Assembly: GCA_001767695.1 (NCBI GenBank)
Contig: MELR01000010.1
Location: 1-39,960, forward strand
Source: Actinobacteria bacterium RBG_16_68_21
Lineage (GTDB): Bacteria; Actinomycetota; Acidimicrobiia; Spongiisociales; UBA11373
Length of the DNA: 39,960 bases
Direction of reading: 5' to 3'
Shown: positions 13,730 to 39,960 of the stretch, one piece after another
Numbering within the stretch: position 1 is the stretch's first letter
Layout: each line of letters starts with the position of its first letter
Notes under the pieces: generated by a model
The model's input: only the letters and a program-made list of their open reading frames with translations
Told to the model about the DNA's origin: nothing
Databases searched by the model: none
Position numbers and translations under genes: made by a program

Positions 13730-13848
13730 TAGCGCTCCACCTCCTTTGGACACCCGCGTACGGCGGGAGGCCCCCGTAGGGGCAGGTCGGGGAAGGCCAG
13801 GAGTGTATCGCGGCCAGGGGAGATCGCGGAAGTCGAGCCAGAGGCCGC

Positions 13849-13940
13849 CTACCGGCTACCGGCAAGAGATCGGACGGCGAGGGGCTCTGCGTAGGGAGCG
13901 CTCTTGCGGGCAGCGGGGAGCGGGCAGCGGGCAGCCGGCG
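13849..13940. repeat. Heptamer-period tandem repeat tract
   Basis: ctaccgg-ctaccgg-caagaga ... gcgggca-gcgggga-gcgggca-gcgggca-gccggcg. Confidence 0.75.
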
Positions 13941-15462: not shown

Positions 15463-15581
15463 GCAGTTCGTAGTTCGTGACTCGTGGCTCGCAATCCGCA
15501 ACCCGCAAACCGCAACTCGCAAGTCGTAACTCGTAACTCGCTGCCCGTCGCCCGTCTTGCGGGCAGCTGGTAGCCAGCAGC
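15463..15581. repeat. Long heptamer-period tandem repeat tract, 13 units fitting GNNNNYC
   Basis: gcagttc gtagttc gtgactc gtggctc gcaatcc gcaaccc gcaaacc gcaactc gcaagtc gtaactc gtaactc gctgccc gtcgccc, then gtcttgc gggcagc tggtagc cagcagc. Confidence 0.9.
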
Positions 15582-16095: not shown

Positions 16096-16096
16096 G

Positions 16097-16138
16097 CCTG
16101 TCGCCGGTCGCCTGTCGCCCGTCGCCCGTCGCCCGCAA
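16097..16138. repeat. Heptamer-period tandem repeat tract (CCYGTCG)
   Basis: cctgtcg ccggtcg cctgtcg cccgtcg cccgtcg cccgcaa. Confidence 0.85.
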
Positions 16139-16242: not shown

Positions 16243-16249
16243 GAGACCT

Positions 16250-16291
16250 CGCTCATCGCCTTTCGCCCATCGCCTATTCGCTTTTCGCGTT
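16250..16291. repeat. Heptamer-period tandem repeat tract (CGCYNAT/TTT)
   Basis: cgctcat cgccttt cgcccat cgcctat tcgcttt tcgcgtt. Confidence 0.6.
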
Positions 16292-16371: not shown

Positions 16372-16905
16372 ATGCTCGACATGGCGATCCTCGGCCTGCT
16401 CCGCGAGGGCCCGATGCACGGCTACGAGTTGAAACAGCGACTCGTCGACCTCGGCTTCTGGCGAATCTCGTTCGGCTCGGTCTACCCGGCGCTGCGGCGT
16501 CTCGACCGTTCCGGCTGGATCGAGGTATCCGGCGGGTCGGGTCGACGCAAGGAATACCGGATCACCGCTGAAGGCAAGGAGCACTTCCAGCAGATCCTCG
16601 AAGACGAAGCCTCGGAAGTGGAGAACACCACCGCGTTCCGGGTGCGCCTCGCCTTCTTCCGGTACATGGAACCGTCCGTTCGCATCGGGTTCCTGGAGCG
16701 ACGCAAGTCGGTGCTCCGGGAGCGCATCGCCGCTGCCCGCGGCTCACTCCGCAAGACCGCCGACCGGGTGGACCGCTACACGCAGGCGCTGATGGAGCAC
16801 GGGGTGAAGGTCGCCGAGGCCGACGTGGCCTGGATCGAAGAGTTGATCGCGTCCGAACAGCTGGACGCACCGCGGGGCTTCGACGACGCCCCCGGCGAGA
16901 AGTGA
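16372..16905 (+). CDS. PadR-family transcriptional regulator
   Basis: [52 protein letters not shown]. Confidence 0.95.
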
Positions 16906-16922
16906 GAGAGAGGGAGGACGAC

Positions 16923-18032
16923 ATGGCCAAGGTTCGAGTGGCGATTGCCGGAGTCGGCAACTGCGCCAACTCGCTGATCCAAGGCGTCACGTACTACCGC
17001 GACGCCGAGCCGGGGATGAGTGTCCCCGGTCTGATGCACGTCGAGCTCGGCGGATATCACATCCGCGACATCGAGTTCGTCGCCGCCTTCGACGTCGATG
17101 CCGCCAAGGTGGGCCAGGAGCTCACCAAGGCGATGTGGGCCGGAGTGAACGACACCTACCGGTTCGCCGAGGTCGCCGAGACCGAGGTCCAGGTCCAGCG
17201 GGGACCGACGCTCGACGGTCTGGGCAAGTACTACCGATTGACGATCGAGGAATCGGTCGAGGAGCCCGTGGACGTCGTGGTCGCGCTCAAGGAGTCGGGC
17301 GCCGACGTGCTGGTCGCCTACCTCCCGGTGGGCTCGGAGCAGGCGATCCGCTTCTACGCCGAGGCCGCGCTCGAGGCCGGTGTCGGGTTCGTCAACTGCA
17401 TCCCGGTGTTCATTGCCTCCAATCCCGAGTGGGCCCGCCGTTTCTACGATGCAGGTATCCCGATCATCGGGGACGACATCAAGTCGCAGGTCGGGGCGAC
17501 GATCGTCCACCGCACGCTCGCCCGCCTCTTCGAGGATCGCGGGGTGACGATCGAGCACACCAGCCAGCTGAATGTCGGCGGCAACATGGACTTCAAGAAC
17601 ATGCTCGAACGGGAGCGGCTCGAGTCGAAGAAGATCTCCAAGACCCAGGCCGTCACCTCGCAGTTGGACAACGCCCTTGCCTCGGACGACATCCACATCG
17701 GACCCTCCGACTACGTGCCGTGGCTCACCGACCGGAAGTGGGCCTACATCAGGATCGAAGGCAAGGCTTTCGGCGACGTTCCTCTCAACGCCGAGCTGAA
17801 GCTCGAAGTGTGGGACTCGCCTAACTCGGCCGGGGTGGTGATCGACGCGGTGCGCTGCATCAAGCTGGCACTGGACCGCGGCATCGGCGGGCCGCTGCTC
17901 GCCCCTGCCTCGTACTTCATGAAGAGCCCGCCCGTGCAGTTCCGTGATGCCGATGCTCACGCCTACGTCGAGGCGTTCTCCATCGGCGAGGACCTCACCA
18001 AGGAAGCCCTGGCGGAGTACCTCGCCGGCTGA
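16923..18032 (+). CDS. ino1: Inositol-3-phosphate synthase (actinobacterial type)
   Basis: [28 protein letters not shown]...[41 protein letters not shown]...[35 protein letters not shown]. Confidence 0.96.
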
Positions 18033-18055
18033 TCCGACAGCTCACTCTCTCTCAG

Positions 18056-18086
18056 ATCGAGGGCCGCCCTGGGGGCGGCCCTCGAT
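18056..18086 (+). terminator. Intrinsic terminator-like hairpin after ino1
   Basis: atcgagggccgccc-tgg-gggcggccctcgat (14-bp arms). Confidence 0.7.
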
Positions 18087-18098
18087 TCGCGCCAAGAG

Positions 18099-18266
18099 GC
18101 TGCCCGCTTCCCGCTGCCGGCTACCCGCAAGAAGGTTGCCCGTTTCCGGTTTCCAGTTTCCAGCAAGAGGCGGCCGAACCGGATTTCGCTCATCGCCCAT
18201 CGCGGACCTTGCCAATTGCCAATTGCGCCTCACGAACAACGAACAACGAACTACGAACTACGAAGG
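18099..18266. repeat. Mosaic of several heptamer-period tandem repeats
   Basis: gctgccc gcttccc gctgccg gctaccc; cgtttcc ggtttcc agtttcc; tcatcgc ccatcgc; gccaatt gccaatt; acgaaca acgaaca acgaact acgaact. Confidence 0.85.
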
Positions 18267-19021
18267 TGCGCCCTCACCCACCCGATGTCCGCCGTTTGCT
18301 CTTCGCTGCCTCCCGGGGTTTCCACCAGGATCGGGCAATCGACCGCAGAGACCACCGCGCCGAGCAGTTCCTCCGGGATCTCGCCTTCCGTCAGGTTGGC
18401 ATGACGATCGCGGTGGCTGCCGAGAGGGTCGCGAGAGTCGTTGAGGTGGACGAGATCCACCGCGCCGGTCATCTCGGTGACCCGGGCGACGAGGGTGGCG
18501 AGATCCTCACCCGCCGCCCAGGCATGGCACGTGTCGAGGCACACCCCTACGTTGTGGTTGCCGATCTCCTCCCACAGCAGGCGGTACCCACTCACATCCC
18601 GCAATACGGCGTTGCCGCCGCCGGCGGTGTTCTCCAGGAGGATCGGCACCGAGATGTCCACCGAGTCGAGTGCCTTCCGCCATCGCTCGATTCCGACCGC
18701 GACTTCCTCTTCGTCTCCGACGTGCCCGCCGTGGACGATCACGCCGGCAGCGCCGACGGCTGACGCCGCCGCCAGGGTGTCCGCCAGGATCTTGCGACTC
18801 GGTATCCGAATCCGGTTGTTGGGAGAGGCCACGTTCACCAGGTAAGGGGCATGGACGTACAGCCGGATCGGCGAGGCGACGAGGTCGGCGGCATCGTCGC
18901 GCGGCAGCGGCGCCTTCCAGGATTGCGGGCTGGACAAGAAGGTCTGCACGGCGTCGGCACCGCGGGACGCTGCTTCCGCAAGCGGATCGGCCGATGGCAC
19001 GTGGGCCCCCACCAGATTCAC
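18251..19021 (-). CDS. nfo: Endonuclease IV-like AP endonuclease
   Basis: VNLVGAHVPSADPLAEAASRGADAVQTFLSSPQSWK...IVHGGHVG...ILLENTAGGG...GVCLDTCHAWAAGEDL...VHLNDSRDPLGSHRDRHANLTEGEIP...ILVETPGG; GTG start. Confidence 0.93.
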   Translation of the reverse strand: MNLVGAHVPSADPLAEAASRGADAVQTFLSSPQSWKAPLPRDDAADLVASPIRLYVHAPYLVNVASPNNRIRIPSRKILADTLAAASAVGAAGVIVHGGHVGDEEEVAVGIERWRKALDSVDISVPILLENTAGGGNAVLRDVSGYRLLWEEIGNHNVGVCLDTCHAWAAGEDLATLVARVTEMTGAVDLVHLNDSRDPLGSHRDRHANLTEGEIPEELLGAVVSAVDCPILVETPGGSEEQTADIGWVRAHLRSS

Positions 19022-19816: not shown

Positions 19817-22800
19817 TCAGCGCCTTCCGGAGACCCGCCAGATGGCCAAGTCCCATCTCCGCTCGCGGCGGTGGCCGTCCACGAGGACCGCCGCACCGAG
19901 GAGGAGCAACACGGCGGCGGCGATGAGGAACTGGTCGGCGGCGATGCCGGTAAAGGGCAGGGCTGCCTCGAGCTCGAACCCGAAATCGGCGGTCAGCACC
20001 GCGTTGCCCGCGGTCAGGTCGATCGTCATCACGGTCGGCGTGGTGGCGTGCGTCGCCGCTCCGATCGTCGCCGAATCGACCTCGAGGCGATAGGACCCCG
20101 GGGGCAGCGTGGCGAACTCGTAATGGCCGAATTCATCGGTGATGACCGATGGGAAGACATAGTCGTCGGCGGTGTCGAAGACGCCGTCGGGACCCGCCCA
20201 GGTCATGGTGATCGTGGCACCGGCGAGGGTCGGTTCGTCCTCGTTCTTGTTGCCGTCGCTGTCACGGTCCTCCCACACCAGGTCGCCAACCGAAGCAGTG
20301 CCGGTGTAGCCGAAGTCCAATCCGTTCACTACGGAACCGGCGATCACCATTGCTGCGGTCCGCCCATCGACCGCGGCGTCCGGATCGATGGAGATCTCGA
20401 GGCCGGTCAGGGCCGTCTGCCTGTCGATACGGACCTCGTAGGTCCCGGGTGCGAGGTTGGCGAAGAAGTAGTGCCCCTCGCCATCGGTGACCGTCGAGTG
20501 GACGACCGCCCCACTCTGGTACAGGTCGACGGTCACTCCGGCCCGCGGCGGCTCTCCAGGGTCACGACTCGGATCGTGATCGAGGTCGAGATAGACCTGG
20601 CCCGAGATCGACCCGGGGGGCGGCCCATAGCCGATGTCGGCGGCGGGGACCGCCACGCCGGCGACCGCGGTCACGGTCTGGTGGGCGTTGGCGGTGGTCA
20701 GGTCGTATCCGGCCGGCACGGTGGCGTCCACGACCCTGACATCGACCGACCCGGGGAGGACCGTCGCCGACCAATGCCCGTTGCTGGGGGTGGTCACGGT
20801 GACCGTGCCACCGCCCCCGGAGTCGGTGACCTGGACGCCGATACCGGCCAGTCCGGGCTCACCGGGGTCCATCACCCCGTCGCGGTCGAGATCGGCAAAC
20901 ACCACACCGGTGAGCGACGACCCTGACGGGGCGAAGGCCACCGTCGCCGAATCGGACTCCTCGATGTCGTTGCCGTCCTCGTCGTCCGCCGTGACCGTGA
21001 CCGTGTCGACGTGGTCCGGGTCACCGTACCTGCCGGTCAATGCGGCCTGAAACGAGCAGGTGGCGGTCGCGCCGGCCGCGAGCGAGGACGGCAGGGTTGG
21101 GCAGGTGTTGGCGGCAACGTCGGTGTTCCCCGCATCGAGCACGTCGCCGAAGACATCATCCCAGAGGGCATCGACGGTGAGCGGCTCGACAGAGAGGTTC
21201 TCCACGGTGACCGTGAACGTCACGGTTCCGCCCGGCTCGGTCACCGACGCCGCCGAAGTGGTCTTGGTGATCGACGCAGCGGGCAGCACGTCGTCGAAGG
21301 ACACGGTCGCCGATGCCTCATCGCGGGCGACGTCGCCCTCGTCGTCGTGGCCGGTGACGGTGACGGTGTCGGTGTGATCGGGGCCCGAGGCGTCCCCGGC
21401 GACGAACGCCTCGAACGAGCAGGCGAACGCCGCCCCGGCGGCCATCGTGGTCGGCAGGGAGACGCACGAGTTGGCCGACACGTCGGGGTTTGCCACGTCG
21501 AGCAGATCCCCGAACACGTCGTCGACCAGCGAATCGATGGTGAGCGTCTCTGCGGAGGTGTTGGTGACGGTGACGTCGAACGTCACGTCGTCGCCGGGTT
21601 CGTCTACCGACGATGTCGAGGGGGCCTTGGTGACGGCGATCGTGGAAGCGGTGTCGAGGAAGAACACGGTGGCATCGTCGGAAGCCGAATCGGTGGATCC
21701 GTCGTCGTCGATCACCGACGCGAGAACGACGTCCTGATGCGGGGGACCCGAGGCGTTGCCGGGGACGAAGGCGTCGAATTGGCAGCTGAGGGCATCGCCA
21801 ACGGCAATGGCGGTACCCACGACCGGGCAGGTGTTGGCGCTCACTGCGGGGTTCCCGGCGTCGGCCAGATCACCGAACCGGTCATCGGTGAGGGCGGTGA
21901 GGGTCACATCCTCGATCGAGTCGTTGGTGACGGTCACGAAGAACGTCACCGTCTCACCGGGCTCGGTCACCCAGTCCGAGGACACGTCCTTGACGACGCT
22001 GATCGAAGGAGGAACGTCCACGACTGTGCCCTCGTCATCGGTCTCGTCGCCGGGGTTTCCCTCGGGCGTGTCCGAGGACAAGGTCGCAGTGTTGTTGATC
22101 ACCCCGTCCACGGCAGAGCCGACATCCACCGCGATGTCGAACGCCACCGAGGTCACCCCGAGGTCACCCGGCAAGCAGGTGAGCGTGCCCACCGGTCCTT
22201 CCACGCAGGACGGGTCGCTGGCCGCGGGGACGAAGGTCACCGAAGGGGGAAGCGTGTCGACGACGACCACGGCAACCGCCGCGTCGGGTCCGGCGTTGGT
22301 GACGGTGAGTGTGTAGGCCAGCCGGTCACCGGGATGGAGAGGCGTCACTTCGTCGTCGACCTTGGTGAGCGACAGGTCTGCGAGCGTTTCGGCGTAGTCG
22401 GTAGCCGAAGCAGACTGCGGGGCCGGGAACTGATCGGAGTACGTCTCCGCGGTGTTGACGAACTCGGTTGTGCCCCCGGGAATCGGCGAGTCGACCGTGA
22501 CGTCGAATGTGATCGTGAGCATGCCATCGTCCGGGATCGTCACCCCCGACACCAGATTCGGCGGCGGCCCGGCCGCAACCGGGGTGCCTGCGACGTCCGC
22601 CGCCACCGACCCGCCGACATAGCTGACCCCAACGGGCAGGGTGTCGGTCACCACCACCCCCGTCTGGGGGGTGTCTTCGCTGTTGTGGACCCGGACGGTA
22701 TAAGTGATCGGGTCGCCGGCGCCGACGACGCCGCCCCCGACCGACGACGACTTCACGATGTGGAGGGGAGGCACGTCCAGCGGCCTCCGGTTGGTCGCCG

Positions 22801-24739
22801 TCGTCGGACCGTAATCGGTGACCATGATCGCGGTGTTCACCACCTCCGACACGCCAAAGGGAATCGGGCTGTCGACCACGACCGCGAACTCCGCCACCCG
22901 CGTCGCTCCGGGGCCGATGGTTCCCACCGCCAATCCCCCGGCCGGGGAGTCGGCGTCCAGAGGCGTAGGCGAGAACGGGGCGCCGTCGTCGGGTTTGGTG
23001 GCCCCGTCGAGGATCGTCGAAGAGGCGACGTAGGAGGTCAGCGTCGGTGGGTCGTCGGTGAGCACGACATCGTCCACGGCGACGATCCCCAGGTTCTGCA
23101 TGGTCACCGTGTAGGTGATCTCATCGCCGGCATCGGCGAGTCCGTCGCCGTCCCCGTCGTCGCTGATCACGGACGACTTGGTCATGATGATCTCGGGAAA
23201 GGGCAGGATCGTTGTGCCCATGTCGAGGGCCGGGGATCCGCCGGTGTACCCCGGTCGCTGGCCCCAGGCAGCAGCGAGGCGGGTGCCGTCGAGGGTGTAG
23301 AAGCGGGCGCCGGTGAGGTCACGGTCGCCGCCGGCCGCGGAGGACTCGCTCGGCAGGTAACAGTTCGAGGTGCCGTCGTCGTAGATAGTTATCGACGCAA
23401 AGGCGGTCACGTCACACGAGAAGTCGAAGTGGTTGCCGAGCGCGTCCACCCCGGCGCCTGTCGTCGGATCCCCGTCGCGGTCCACGTAGAGGGTGGTATC
23501 CGCCGACGGGGCGAGCCACACCGGGCTGTAGTTGTTGGTGAGCCCCTCCGACCCGGGGGCATAGGGCACGATCACCGACGGGGTGGTGGCCTGACCGGGG
23601 ACCAGGGTGTAACCCCAGTCGTAGGACGAGGTGCTGCTGCCCTCGGTGGTGATCATCTGGAAGGCGTAGAACGGCTCTCCCCCCTGGCTGGTGAACCTGG
23701 CGCCGGCATCCACCGGCATCAGGTAGGACGCCTGGGCGTGGGCGCCGACCGGTACGGTGTCGATCCCGCCGCCCCCGAGAAGCACGTCGACGGTGATCCC
23801 CCCGGCTCCGGGATTGAAGAGGAAGACCCTGGTGCCGAGAGTGCCGGAATACGATCCGACCGGACTGACGCTCTGATCCGACCAGATCGCGGTCGGATAC
23901 AACTCGAAGAGCCGCGATTCATAAGTAGCCCCGATGTCCCCTGTGGTCACGTACACGGACACGGGTTGGTTGGCGGTGACGACCGCGCCGAGCAGCACGC
24001 CTCCGTTCACCACGTGGGTTTCCCCCTCGGTGAGCGAAAAAGAGGTCTCGTACGACCCATTGGCATCGAGGTCGGCCGACACCGTGGTGCCGGCGGCGGT
24101 CCCCACCACAACCAGGCCGGTGTATTCGAATACCTGGTTGAAGTCGGCGTCCTCTCCTGCCGGGATGTCGAACCGGGTGCCCGACTTGTCGATGTCGAGC
24201 ACCTGGACCCCGCCGGCGAGCAGGGTCCCGGAGTCGGAGGCGTACCCGGTCTGGGTGACGGCGATGGGGGCGGTCGAGACGATCTTGTCCCGGCCGTCGA
24301 AGTAGTTGCCGGCGCCGCGCGCCCCGCCCACGTCGACAGAGACGTTGGATGTCTGCGTCCAGACCTCACCGGCGTCCATCGGCAAGACGAGCGTCGAAGC
24401 CTGGACGGGGGACAGCGCGTCGACCTCGTAGCCGTCCTCGAAATGGTCGTAGTAGACGACATTCCCGTCGGCACCTGAGGTGATCGAGATCGTCGAGATC
24501 ACCGGACTGTCACAACACGCCGGGTCGTCGGCGATGGTGCGCAGGATGCCGATGTACTGCTGTGCCTCATACGGCGTGTAATAGGTCTGGGCAATCGCCG
24601 GGGCGGCTTGGGCCGTCCCAGGGCGGGTCGCCTGGCCGAATACCGCCACTTGTGCGGCGATCGCCACGACGGCGAGCAGCGCACGGCTGATGTGGATGCG
24701 ACGGACCCTCCGGGTTCGCGCGCCCAAGCTCGGGTACAT
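19817..24739 (-). CDS. Large repeat surface protein with DUF11-like and SdrD-B-like domains and an LPFTG sorting signal
   Basis: Signal peptide ending AQAA; repeated DUF11-like units (DxxxxTLPxxVSYV..., VTEPGxxVTFxVTVxN); three SdrD-B-like units (SLTGVVFADLDRDGVMDPGEPGLAG, SISGQVYLDLDHDPSRDPGEPPRAG, SVGDLVWEDRDSDGNKNEDEPTLAG); C-terminus LPFTG-TM-RRERRW...RR. Confidence 0.9.
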   Translation of the reverse strand: MYPSLGARTRRVRRIHISRALLAVVAIAAQVAVFGQATRPGTAQAAPAIAQTYYTPYEAQQYIGILRTIADDPACCDSPVISTISITSGADGNVVYYDHFEDGYEVDALSPVQASTLVLPMDAGEVWTQTSNVSVDVGGARGAGNYFDGRDKIVSTAPIAVTQTGYASDSGTLLAGGVQVLDIDKSGTRFDIPAGEDADFNQVFEYTGLVVVGTAAGTTVSADLDANGSYETSFSLTEGETHVVNGGVLLGAVVTANQPVSVYVTTGDIGATYESRLFELYPTAIWSDQSVSPVGSYSGTLGTRVFLFNPGAGGITVDVLLGGGGIDTVPVGAHAQASYLMPVDAGARFTSQGGEPFYAFQMITTEGSSTSSYDWGYTLVPGQATTPSVIVPYAPGSEGLTNNYSPVWLAPSADTTLYVDRDGDPTTGAGVDALGNHFDFSCDVTAFASITIYDDGTSNCYLPSESSAAGGDRDLTGARFYTLDGTRLAAAWGQRPGYTGGSPALDMGTTILPFPEIIMTKSSVISDDGDGDGLADAGDEITYTVTMQNLGIVAVDDVVLTDDPPTLTSYVASSTILDGATKPDDGAPFSPTPLDADSPAGGLAVGTIGPGATRVAEFAVVVDSPIPFGVSEVVNTAIMVTDYGPTTATNRRPLDVPPLHIVKSSSVGGGVVGAGDPITYTVRVHNSEDTPQTGVVVTDTLPVGVSYVGGSVAADVAGTPVAAGPPPNLVSGVTIPDDGMLTITFDVTVDSPIPGGTTEFVNTAETYSDQFPAPQSASATDYAETLADLSLTKVDDEVTPLHPGDRLAYTLTVTNAGPDAAVAVVVVDTLPPSVTFVPAASDPSCVEGPVGTLTCLPGDLGVTSVAFDIAVDVGSAVDGVINNTATLSSDTPEGNPGDETDDEGTVVDVPPSISVVKDVSSDWVTEPGETVTFFVTVTNDSIEDVTLTALTDDRFGDLADAGNPAVSANTCPVVGTAIAVGDALSCQFDAFVPGNASGPPHQDVVLASVIDDDGSTDSASDDATVFFLDTASTIAVTKAPSTSSVDEPGDDVTFDVTVTNTSAETLTIDSLVDDVFGDLLDVANPDVSANSCVSLPTTMAAGAAFACSFEAFVAGDASGPDHTDTVTVTGHDDEGDVARDEASATVSFDDVLPAASITKTTSAASVTEPGGTVTFTVTVENLSVEPLTVDALWDDVFGDVLDAGNTDVAANTCPTLPSSLAAGATATCSFQAALTGRYGDPDHVDTVTVTADDEDGNDIEESDSATVAFAPSGSSLTGVVFADLDRDGVMDPGEPGLAGIGVQVTDSGGGGTVTVTTPSNGHWSATVLPGSVDVRVVDATVPAGYDLTTANAHQTVTAVAGVAVPAADIGYGPPPGSISGQVYLDLDHDPSRDPGEPPRAGVTVDLYQSGAVVHSTVTDGEGHYFFANLAPGTYEVRIDRQTALTGLEISIDPDAAVDGRTAAMVIAGSVVNGLDFGYTGTASVGDLVWEDRDSDGNKNEDEPTLAGATITMTWAGPDGVFDTADDYVFPSVITDEFGHYEFATLPPGSYRLEVDSATIGAATHATTPTVMTIDLTAGNAVLTADFGFELEAALPFTGIAADQFLIAAAVLLLLGAAVLVDGHRRERRWDLAIWRVSGRR

Positions 24740-24946
24740 CTGCGTCCTCGGCTTCGTAGCGGATCTTGTCCGCGATTGACCGAGAGCATCGGAAGGTCGG
24801 TGAGGACGCTTGACAGATACCAGCGAAAGGCCAAGAGCGATCAGCGAAACCGTCGGCGGCACACCCGGGACACCAGAGAACGCCCATCGCAGGCCGAGCG
24901 CAGCGAGGCCGCTCGCGGGCTCACGCAGTGAGGCCTATCGCGGCGC

Positions 24947-31343: not shown

Positions 31344-31426
31344 ACCCGCTACCCGCACCCGCCACCCGCAAAGAGTGATTGAGCGGCCGACGGGTGGCGG
31401 GTAGCGGGGAGCCGGCAGCCGGTAGC
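31344..31426. repeat. Bipartite inverted heptamer-period tract
   Basis: acccgct acccgca cccgcc acccgca ... gggtggc gggtagc ggggagc cggcagc cggtagc. Confidence 0.85.
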
Positions 31427-35420: not shown

Positions 35421-35476
35421 AATGAGCGATGAGCGATAAGGGGGATCTCGCTCATTGCTCTTCGCTCATCGCTCGC
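35421..35476. repeat. Bipartite inverted heptamer-period tract overlapping the cca 3' end
   Basis: aatgagc gatgagc gataagg gggatct cgctcat tgctctt cgctcat cgctcgc. Confidence 0.8.
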
Positions 35477-39882: not shown

Positions 39883-39890
39883 GACCCGGT

Positions 39891-39960
39891 CTCCCGCCTC
39901 CCGTCTCCCGTCTCCTGAGGCAGTCGCACCCGGCGGGCGACGGGCGACGGGCGACACGGC
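39891..39960. repeat. Bipartite heptamer-period tract running off the window
   Basis: ctcccgc ctcccgt ctcccgt ctcctga ... gcgggcg acgggcg acgggcg acacggc. Confidence 0.8.

Follow-up and report, generated by a model that had tools for sequence, protein, structure and literature searches.

Heptamer arrays of the kind found between the genes ino1 and nfo in the window (the whole stretch of DNA analysed, 39,960 nucleotides) are the terminal repeats of insertion elements of about 0.4–0.5 kb. Each element carries a single IVP/S23 gene (PF05635), and the two arrays on either side of it share a heptamer unit that is inverted in one relative to the other, which allows the element to fold into a long hairpin. 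Taken together, the reading in which the arrays are S23-element terminal repeats, and the ino1–nfo tract a gene-less composite derivative of them, is the probable one. The link to S23 elements is strong for the arrays as a class, while for the tract itself we infer it; having neither partner array nor fold, the tract is filed as a likely derivative and not as a member.

The tract (18099..18266) lies on the forward strand between two convergent genes, ino1 for inositol-3-phosphate synthase on the left (16902..18032, forward strand; TIGR03450, PF01658) and nfo for deoxyribonuclease IV on the right (18251..19021, reverse strand; NF002198, PF01261). A terminator-like hairpin 3' of ino1 (18055..18087, forward strand, located by RNA folding) borders the tract without being part of it. 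Array 1 (18099..18126) is made up of GCTGCCC, GCTTCCC, GCTGCCG and GCTACCC, i.e. four units of GCTNCC(C/G), and is followed by the connector GCAAGAAG (18127..18134), an in-phase 3' border of C-rich arrays that is part of an anchored pattern (three GYYNCCN units plus GCAAGA) at 18106-18132. The register shifts by one base at this connector, array 2 beginning 36 bp (5 × 7 + 1) after array 1. Array 2 (18135..18162) contains GTTGCCC, GTTTCCG and two copies of GTTTCCA, and ends at the connector GCAAGAG (18163..18169; anchored pattern 18142-18168). Further on, a module formed by ATTTCGC and array 3 (18183..18203, with TCATCGC/CCATCGC at 18190-18203) is common to other composite copies. Array 4 (18209..18226) has the unit TTGCCAA, with two GCCAATT copies at 18211-18224, and array 5 (18232..18264) is formed by two ACGAACA and two ACGAACT units (18232-18259) plus a partial unit. 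All these features are on the forward strand. Array 5 supplies the stop codon of nfo, the open reading frame of which ends at 18251, giving the C-terminus RSS. Tandem Repeats Finder recovers most of the five arrays (1, 2, 4 and 5), the first two being read from the sequence as well.

The first-pass annotation had described five arrays of 7-bp period within 168 bp, and these are present: the lag-7 identity of the 168-bp tract is 0.60, compared with a mean of 0.26 (s.d. 0.033) in 2000 dinucleotide shuffles, of which the best reaches 0.42 at any lag from 3 to 20. The segment had also been read in continuous 7-bp steps. Tandem arrays are readable in any rotation, so this reading carries little weight, and the one-base shift at GCAAGAAG speaks against a single register. 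With a fold z-score of +2.5 the tract is less structured than its shuffled counterparts, by which an RNA or hairpin function was rejected, and an Rfam search of the whole window gave no match. Both features of an intact S23 element are missing from the tract: no PF05635 gene is located inside it and none of its five arrays has an inverted partner. The missing partner and the missing fold were counted against its derivation from such elements. Terminal inverted repeats, present in the gene-less forms of the related genome G008, are likewise absent from it.

About a dozen further period-7 tracts are present in the window, including those at 986-1021, 1573-1607, 13845-13939, 15488-15541, 16096-16135, 16249-16288, 31391-31426, 35422-35474 and 39889-39955; several of them end at GCAAGA, and the one at 39889-39955 resembles an inverted pair. 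On the reverse strand, an open reading frame of 1681 amino acids (19817-24862) with DUF11-type repeats and a weak SdrD-like match probably encodes a surface protein.

The genome of the window, G000, is actinobacterial (Acidimicrobiia-like), 92% complete and comprises 2.03 Mb in 35 contigs. In the 1.09 Mb surveyed, where genes were taken from a simple codon-score caller and gene borders are consequently approximate, 161 period-7 tracts are intergenic and 17 coding, and tracts with a period of 4, 5, 8, 10 or 11 do not occur. Of the 495 gaps with a length of 40 bp or more, 128 contain a period-7 tract, and these tracts comprise 66 different units, many of which fit GYYNCCN. When the tract region was compared with G000 by BLAST, several contigs were found to contain copies of the mosaic with its order preserved, and a composite profile built from 12 copies, that of the window included, gave 65 matches in the 1.09 Mb against one in the reversed-genome control. 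GCAAGA borders the C-rich arrays of G000 in phase, 45 times downstream and 15 times upstream (p = 1e-4). GCAAGAR lies upstream of the module TTTCGCTCATCGC in 19 of the 33 intergenic copies of this module and downstream in three. Inverted gene-less pairs are not significant in this genome (nine versus six).

The composite is thus present as many dispersed copies in one genome, like a MITE, and is not a microsatellite, in which a single unit is amplified in place: there are five units, and their ordered mosaic recurs. The earlier argument that adjacent unlike heptamers with one period speak against the expansion of a single microsatellite unit is borne out by this recurrence. The claim that the five heptamers were amplified locally is contradicted by the dispersed, ordered copies; as the mosaic recurs elsewhere in G000, that of the window was not built in situ. 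Overall, the interpretation first given to the tract is partly supported.

The intergenic position of the arrays might suggest a host regulatory sequence kept by selection, e.g. C-rich Rho-loading sites or intergenic terminators, and where an array separates tandem genes, the sense strand is indeed more often the C-rich one (73 versus 48, p = 0.03). We consider this highly improbable, and a terminator or Rho role was rejected, the strand bias being weak: the preference for convergent gaps is not significant (p = 0.12), ino1 already has its terminator-like hairpin, orthologous gaps do not conserve the units and relatives without S23 genes manage without arrays.

The first lead to S23 elements as the source was a gap compared between genomes G008 and G013, where inverted heptamer arrays surround a gene for a four-helix-bundle protein. 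The protein belongs to PF05635 (IVP/S23) and is TIGR02436 by NCBIfam; among solved structures, XCC0516 of Xanthomonas comes nearest to it, and one copy matches NF033474 weakly. Genes of this S23/IVP family widely carry the annotation "four helix bundle protein"; to our knowledge, no function has been settled for them in the time since intervening sequences were first reported from rRNA. PF05635 is present in 62 of the 138 genomes of the order, and most of its genes are flanked by a matching unit in opposite orientation, for example GGTATCC ×8 on one side and GGATACC ×5 on the other. A strict inverted-array test was passed by 27 of 49 S23 genes and by six of 1444 other genes (p = 1e-38); the 49 loci include 20 further loci, which agree with the inverted, unit-matched pattern. 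At the 16 two-sided loci, the distance between the left unit and the reverse complement of the right unit is 0.44, compared with 3.18 ± 0.28 after permutation (minimum 1.94 in 5000 permutations). Of the array sides around S23 genes, 45 are at period 7 and 0–3 at other periods. The unit differs between elements, and both ends of each match; in G000, where a single S23 gene was found (C25:28291-28608), they are AGCGTGC and GCACGCT. The full element at locus L256 can fold as a long hairpin (z = -6.3) with a stem of about 38 bp.

The S23 copies inside one genome are divergent, so that no recent intragenomic jump is seen. Protein sequence and heptamer unit covary weakly (Mantel r = 0.11, p = 0.014), by which a tight coupling of the two was rejected; this suggests a fast turnover of units in which the match between both ends is preserved. 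At one orthologous site in three congeneric species (L281, L299 and L300), the S23 elements have different heptamers, and in one of the species the gene is reversed between its arrays, which would be expected from recombination between inverted ends or from recurrent insertion. No S23 homologue was found in phages at E ≤ 1e-3. A reverse-transcriptase partner was rejected, since PF00078 was not detected in G000 (92% complete) or in most of the array-rich family relatives, the genomes searched being G000, G002, G007, G008, G012 and G013.

An insertion with a target duplication, as judged against an empty relative, was seen at a cyanobacterial plasmid locus; as this is outside the phylum of the window, it was counted against the proposed origin of the tract. 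Plasmid S23 homologues are located mostly in Nostoc, Calothrix, Anabaena and Pseudanabaena, and 11–12 of the 16 homologues examined from the plasmid search have inverted heptamer ends. The locus in question contains a full element in Trichormus and Scytonema and is empty, at 97–98% identity, in Nostoc linckia, Tolypothrix PCC 7601, Aulosira and others. With a length of 428 bp, the insert is flanked by the 5-bp target duplication GTAAT. As the empty allele has no heptamer, entry of the S23 element into pre-existing arrays is excluded at this site. The two full elements differ in array length by exactly 14 bp. At the same site, Nostoc C052 has kept the left array as a solo array together with a truncated S23 gene, and Brasilonema has a gene-less inverted mini-form with the same unit. 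Two more loci, with junctions read by eye, are consistent with an altered duplication of about 5 bp. The S23 insertions examined sit at gene junctions. Other plasmid S23 elements (L284, L285 and L290) lie between CRISPR genes (cas6/cas4, cas10/cmr3). Elhai and colleagues reportedly described, in 2008, small dispersed repeats in Nostoc, which may be related to the heptamer arrays.

Orthologous ino1–nfo gaps were compared, as had been proposed as a check. In two species of one genus (G017 and G024) the gap contains AGTCATC ×6 and ×2, a difference of 28 bp; the units are not conserved, the gaps of relatives containing different heptamers or none. The supposed 7-bp step of gain and loss is supported by these 28 bp and, more cleanly, by the 14 bp of the cyanobacterial pair, at related loci rather than in the tract of the window.

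Anchored arrays number 61 in G000, 47 in G008 and 77 in G013. They are found in 20 of the 138 genomes of the order, with none in the backwards control there, and only in G000 and G008 among 298 genomes sampled across the phylum. Their co-occurrence with S23 genes in the 138 genomes has p = 9e-5, kinship being ignored. Within the family, there are 163 arrays per Mb in G000 and 204 in G008, compared with 8 in G010 and 0 in G006 (no S23 genes), the array-poor values coming from small samples of 0.07–0.12 Mb per genome. As expected of derivatives, period-7 arrays are thus found together with S23 genes and are missing from S23-less relatives. In sister genomes, units known from an S23 element reappear in dispersed gene-less arrays. 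In G102, an S23 element adjoins a series of several different heptamer arrays, a mosaic like that of the window, and such a mosaic is absent from the S23-less relative G034. Also counted against the derivative reading were the single S23 gene of G000 beside hundreds of arrays and its non-significant inverted pairs, the divergence of S23 copies inside one genome, the kinship ignored in the 138-genome association, and G003, which has an S23 element yet no dispersed arrays in 0.12 Mb. The G003 element is possibly a recent arrival, given this absence. It is located at L337 (C1:1333048-1334344), is the one S23 element of a complete family genome and has long inverted arrays.

These distributions also bear on slippage, in which a polymerase or repair defect would favour 7-bp duplications in any non-coding DNA, S23 elements merely sharing the habit. 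No other class of long simple repeat is as common in bacteria as the heptamers, and the polymerase footprint has been proposed as their cause, according to work cited in PMC4692102 and PMC4679880; array lengths do change by multiples of seven, and NucS was not found in G000 (92% complete). However, NucS is present in 11 of the 14 family members, several of them array-rich, and MutS is absent from all 14, array-rich and array-poor alike, by which loss of mismatch repair was rejected as the cause; arrays are nearly absent from S23-less family genomes although MutS is missing family-wide. Slippage cannot equip two ends at a distance of 500 bp with a shared, inverted unit; the mosaic is copied whole and in order to many loci, and there is no seed heptamer at the cyanobacterial empty site. 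As the origin of the arrays slippage is unlikely, although it probably acts on them once they are formed.

Somewhat more doubtful still is that the composite of G000 is a separate repeat family, spread by another mechanism and resembling S23 elements in period and vocabulary by chance. The composite copies contain no S23 gene, S23 elements did not show the GCAAGA connector at their inner border, and S23 units from the same family come only slightly closer to the units of G000 than those from other families do (p = 0.02). Against this, the strict period of 7 is identical, and S23 genes and arrays co-occur across genomes. The gene-less arrays of G008 form 19 inverted pairs and two direct ones, compared with a null value of 5.4, and several of the inverted pairs carry GCAAG at their inner border, in some with the full GCAAGA. 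In the G008/G013 gap, one species has a gene-less inverted pair and the other an S23 element.

If the tract derives from S23 elements, as we consider probable, several element ends would have accumulated side by side and would then have been dispersed as one unit. In G000 this composite may have spread to dozens of gaps, to be blurred later by 7-bp slippage. The period would be 7 throughout because all arrays stem from one element class. Conceivably, both ends of an element change together by hairpin-templated copying or by exchange between the arms. We tentatively propose, with less confidence than for the origin of the arrays, that the S23/IVP elements are distinct transposable elements, the ends of which are recognised by their 7-bp periodicity and mutual complementarity, not by a fixed sequence, and are rewritten together, and that their solo and composite remnants may account for much of the heptamer content of bacterial genomes. 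Many bacteria have more 7-base repeats than has been explained, and a tiny, overlooked mobile element offers a possible source of them. In the open-access literature, subscription journals being mostly outside the scope of the search, we found no paper joining the heptamer excess with S23 elements; here the two are tied together, and insertion boundaries and a target duplication are given. The link predicts which genomes carry arrays and provides a testable transposition system with ends of no fixed sequence.

Several known systems are similar in part. The heptamer excess of bacteria, tentatively ascribed to polymerase slippage in work cited in PMC4692102 and PMC4679880, includes GGGAATC of Xanthomonas, GGGGATT of Nostoc, TAACTGA of Beggiatoaceae and the cyanobacterial STRR sequences. 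These heptameric simple sequence repeats share with the arrays described here their intergenic position, period of 7, few to dozens of copies and variability among relatives (PMC4692102, PMC4679880); they are, however, single-unit repeats of unexplained origin, whereas here many units form ordered composites with an identified source element. The dispersed gene-less derivatives beside few coding copies, and the inverted mini-forms, are reminiscent of MITEs, REPs and REPINs (for the last, PMC3116915), but S23 elements have no fixed terminal sequence, the unit varying while both ends match. The Avd protein of diversity-generating retroelements is a distant relative of the S23 protein, to judge from the one weak NF033474 match, although no reverse transcriptase was detected in the six genomes searched.

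The closest similarity is to the intervening sequences of 23S rRNA, which share with the present elements the S23 protein family, an inverted-repeat stem and heptameric repeats in that stem (PMC4990558). That of Coxiella has heptameric repeats at its start, in two or three copies depending on the strain, and at 428 nt it is similar in size to the 428-bp element of Trichormus; the stems of intervening sequences in rRNA are cut by RNase III, and their mobility has already been proposed (PMC4990558). Intervening sequences are known only as rRNA insertions, whereas the present elements are located at protein-gene junctions, several per genome, and have gene-less derivatives by the hundred; the tract of the window has no gene or stem and lies in the ino1–nfo gap, not inside a 23S rRNA gene. 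One of the S23 homologues, that of Azospirillum (L286), does lie within 23S rRNA.
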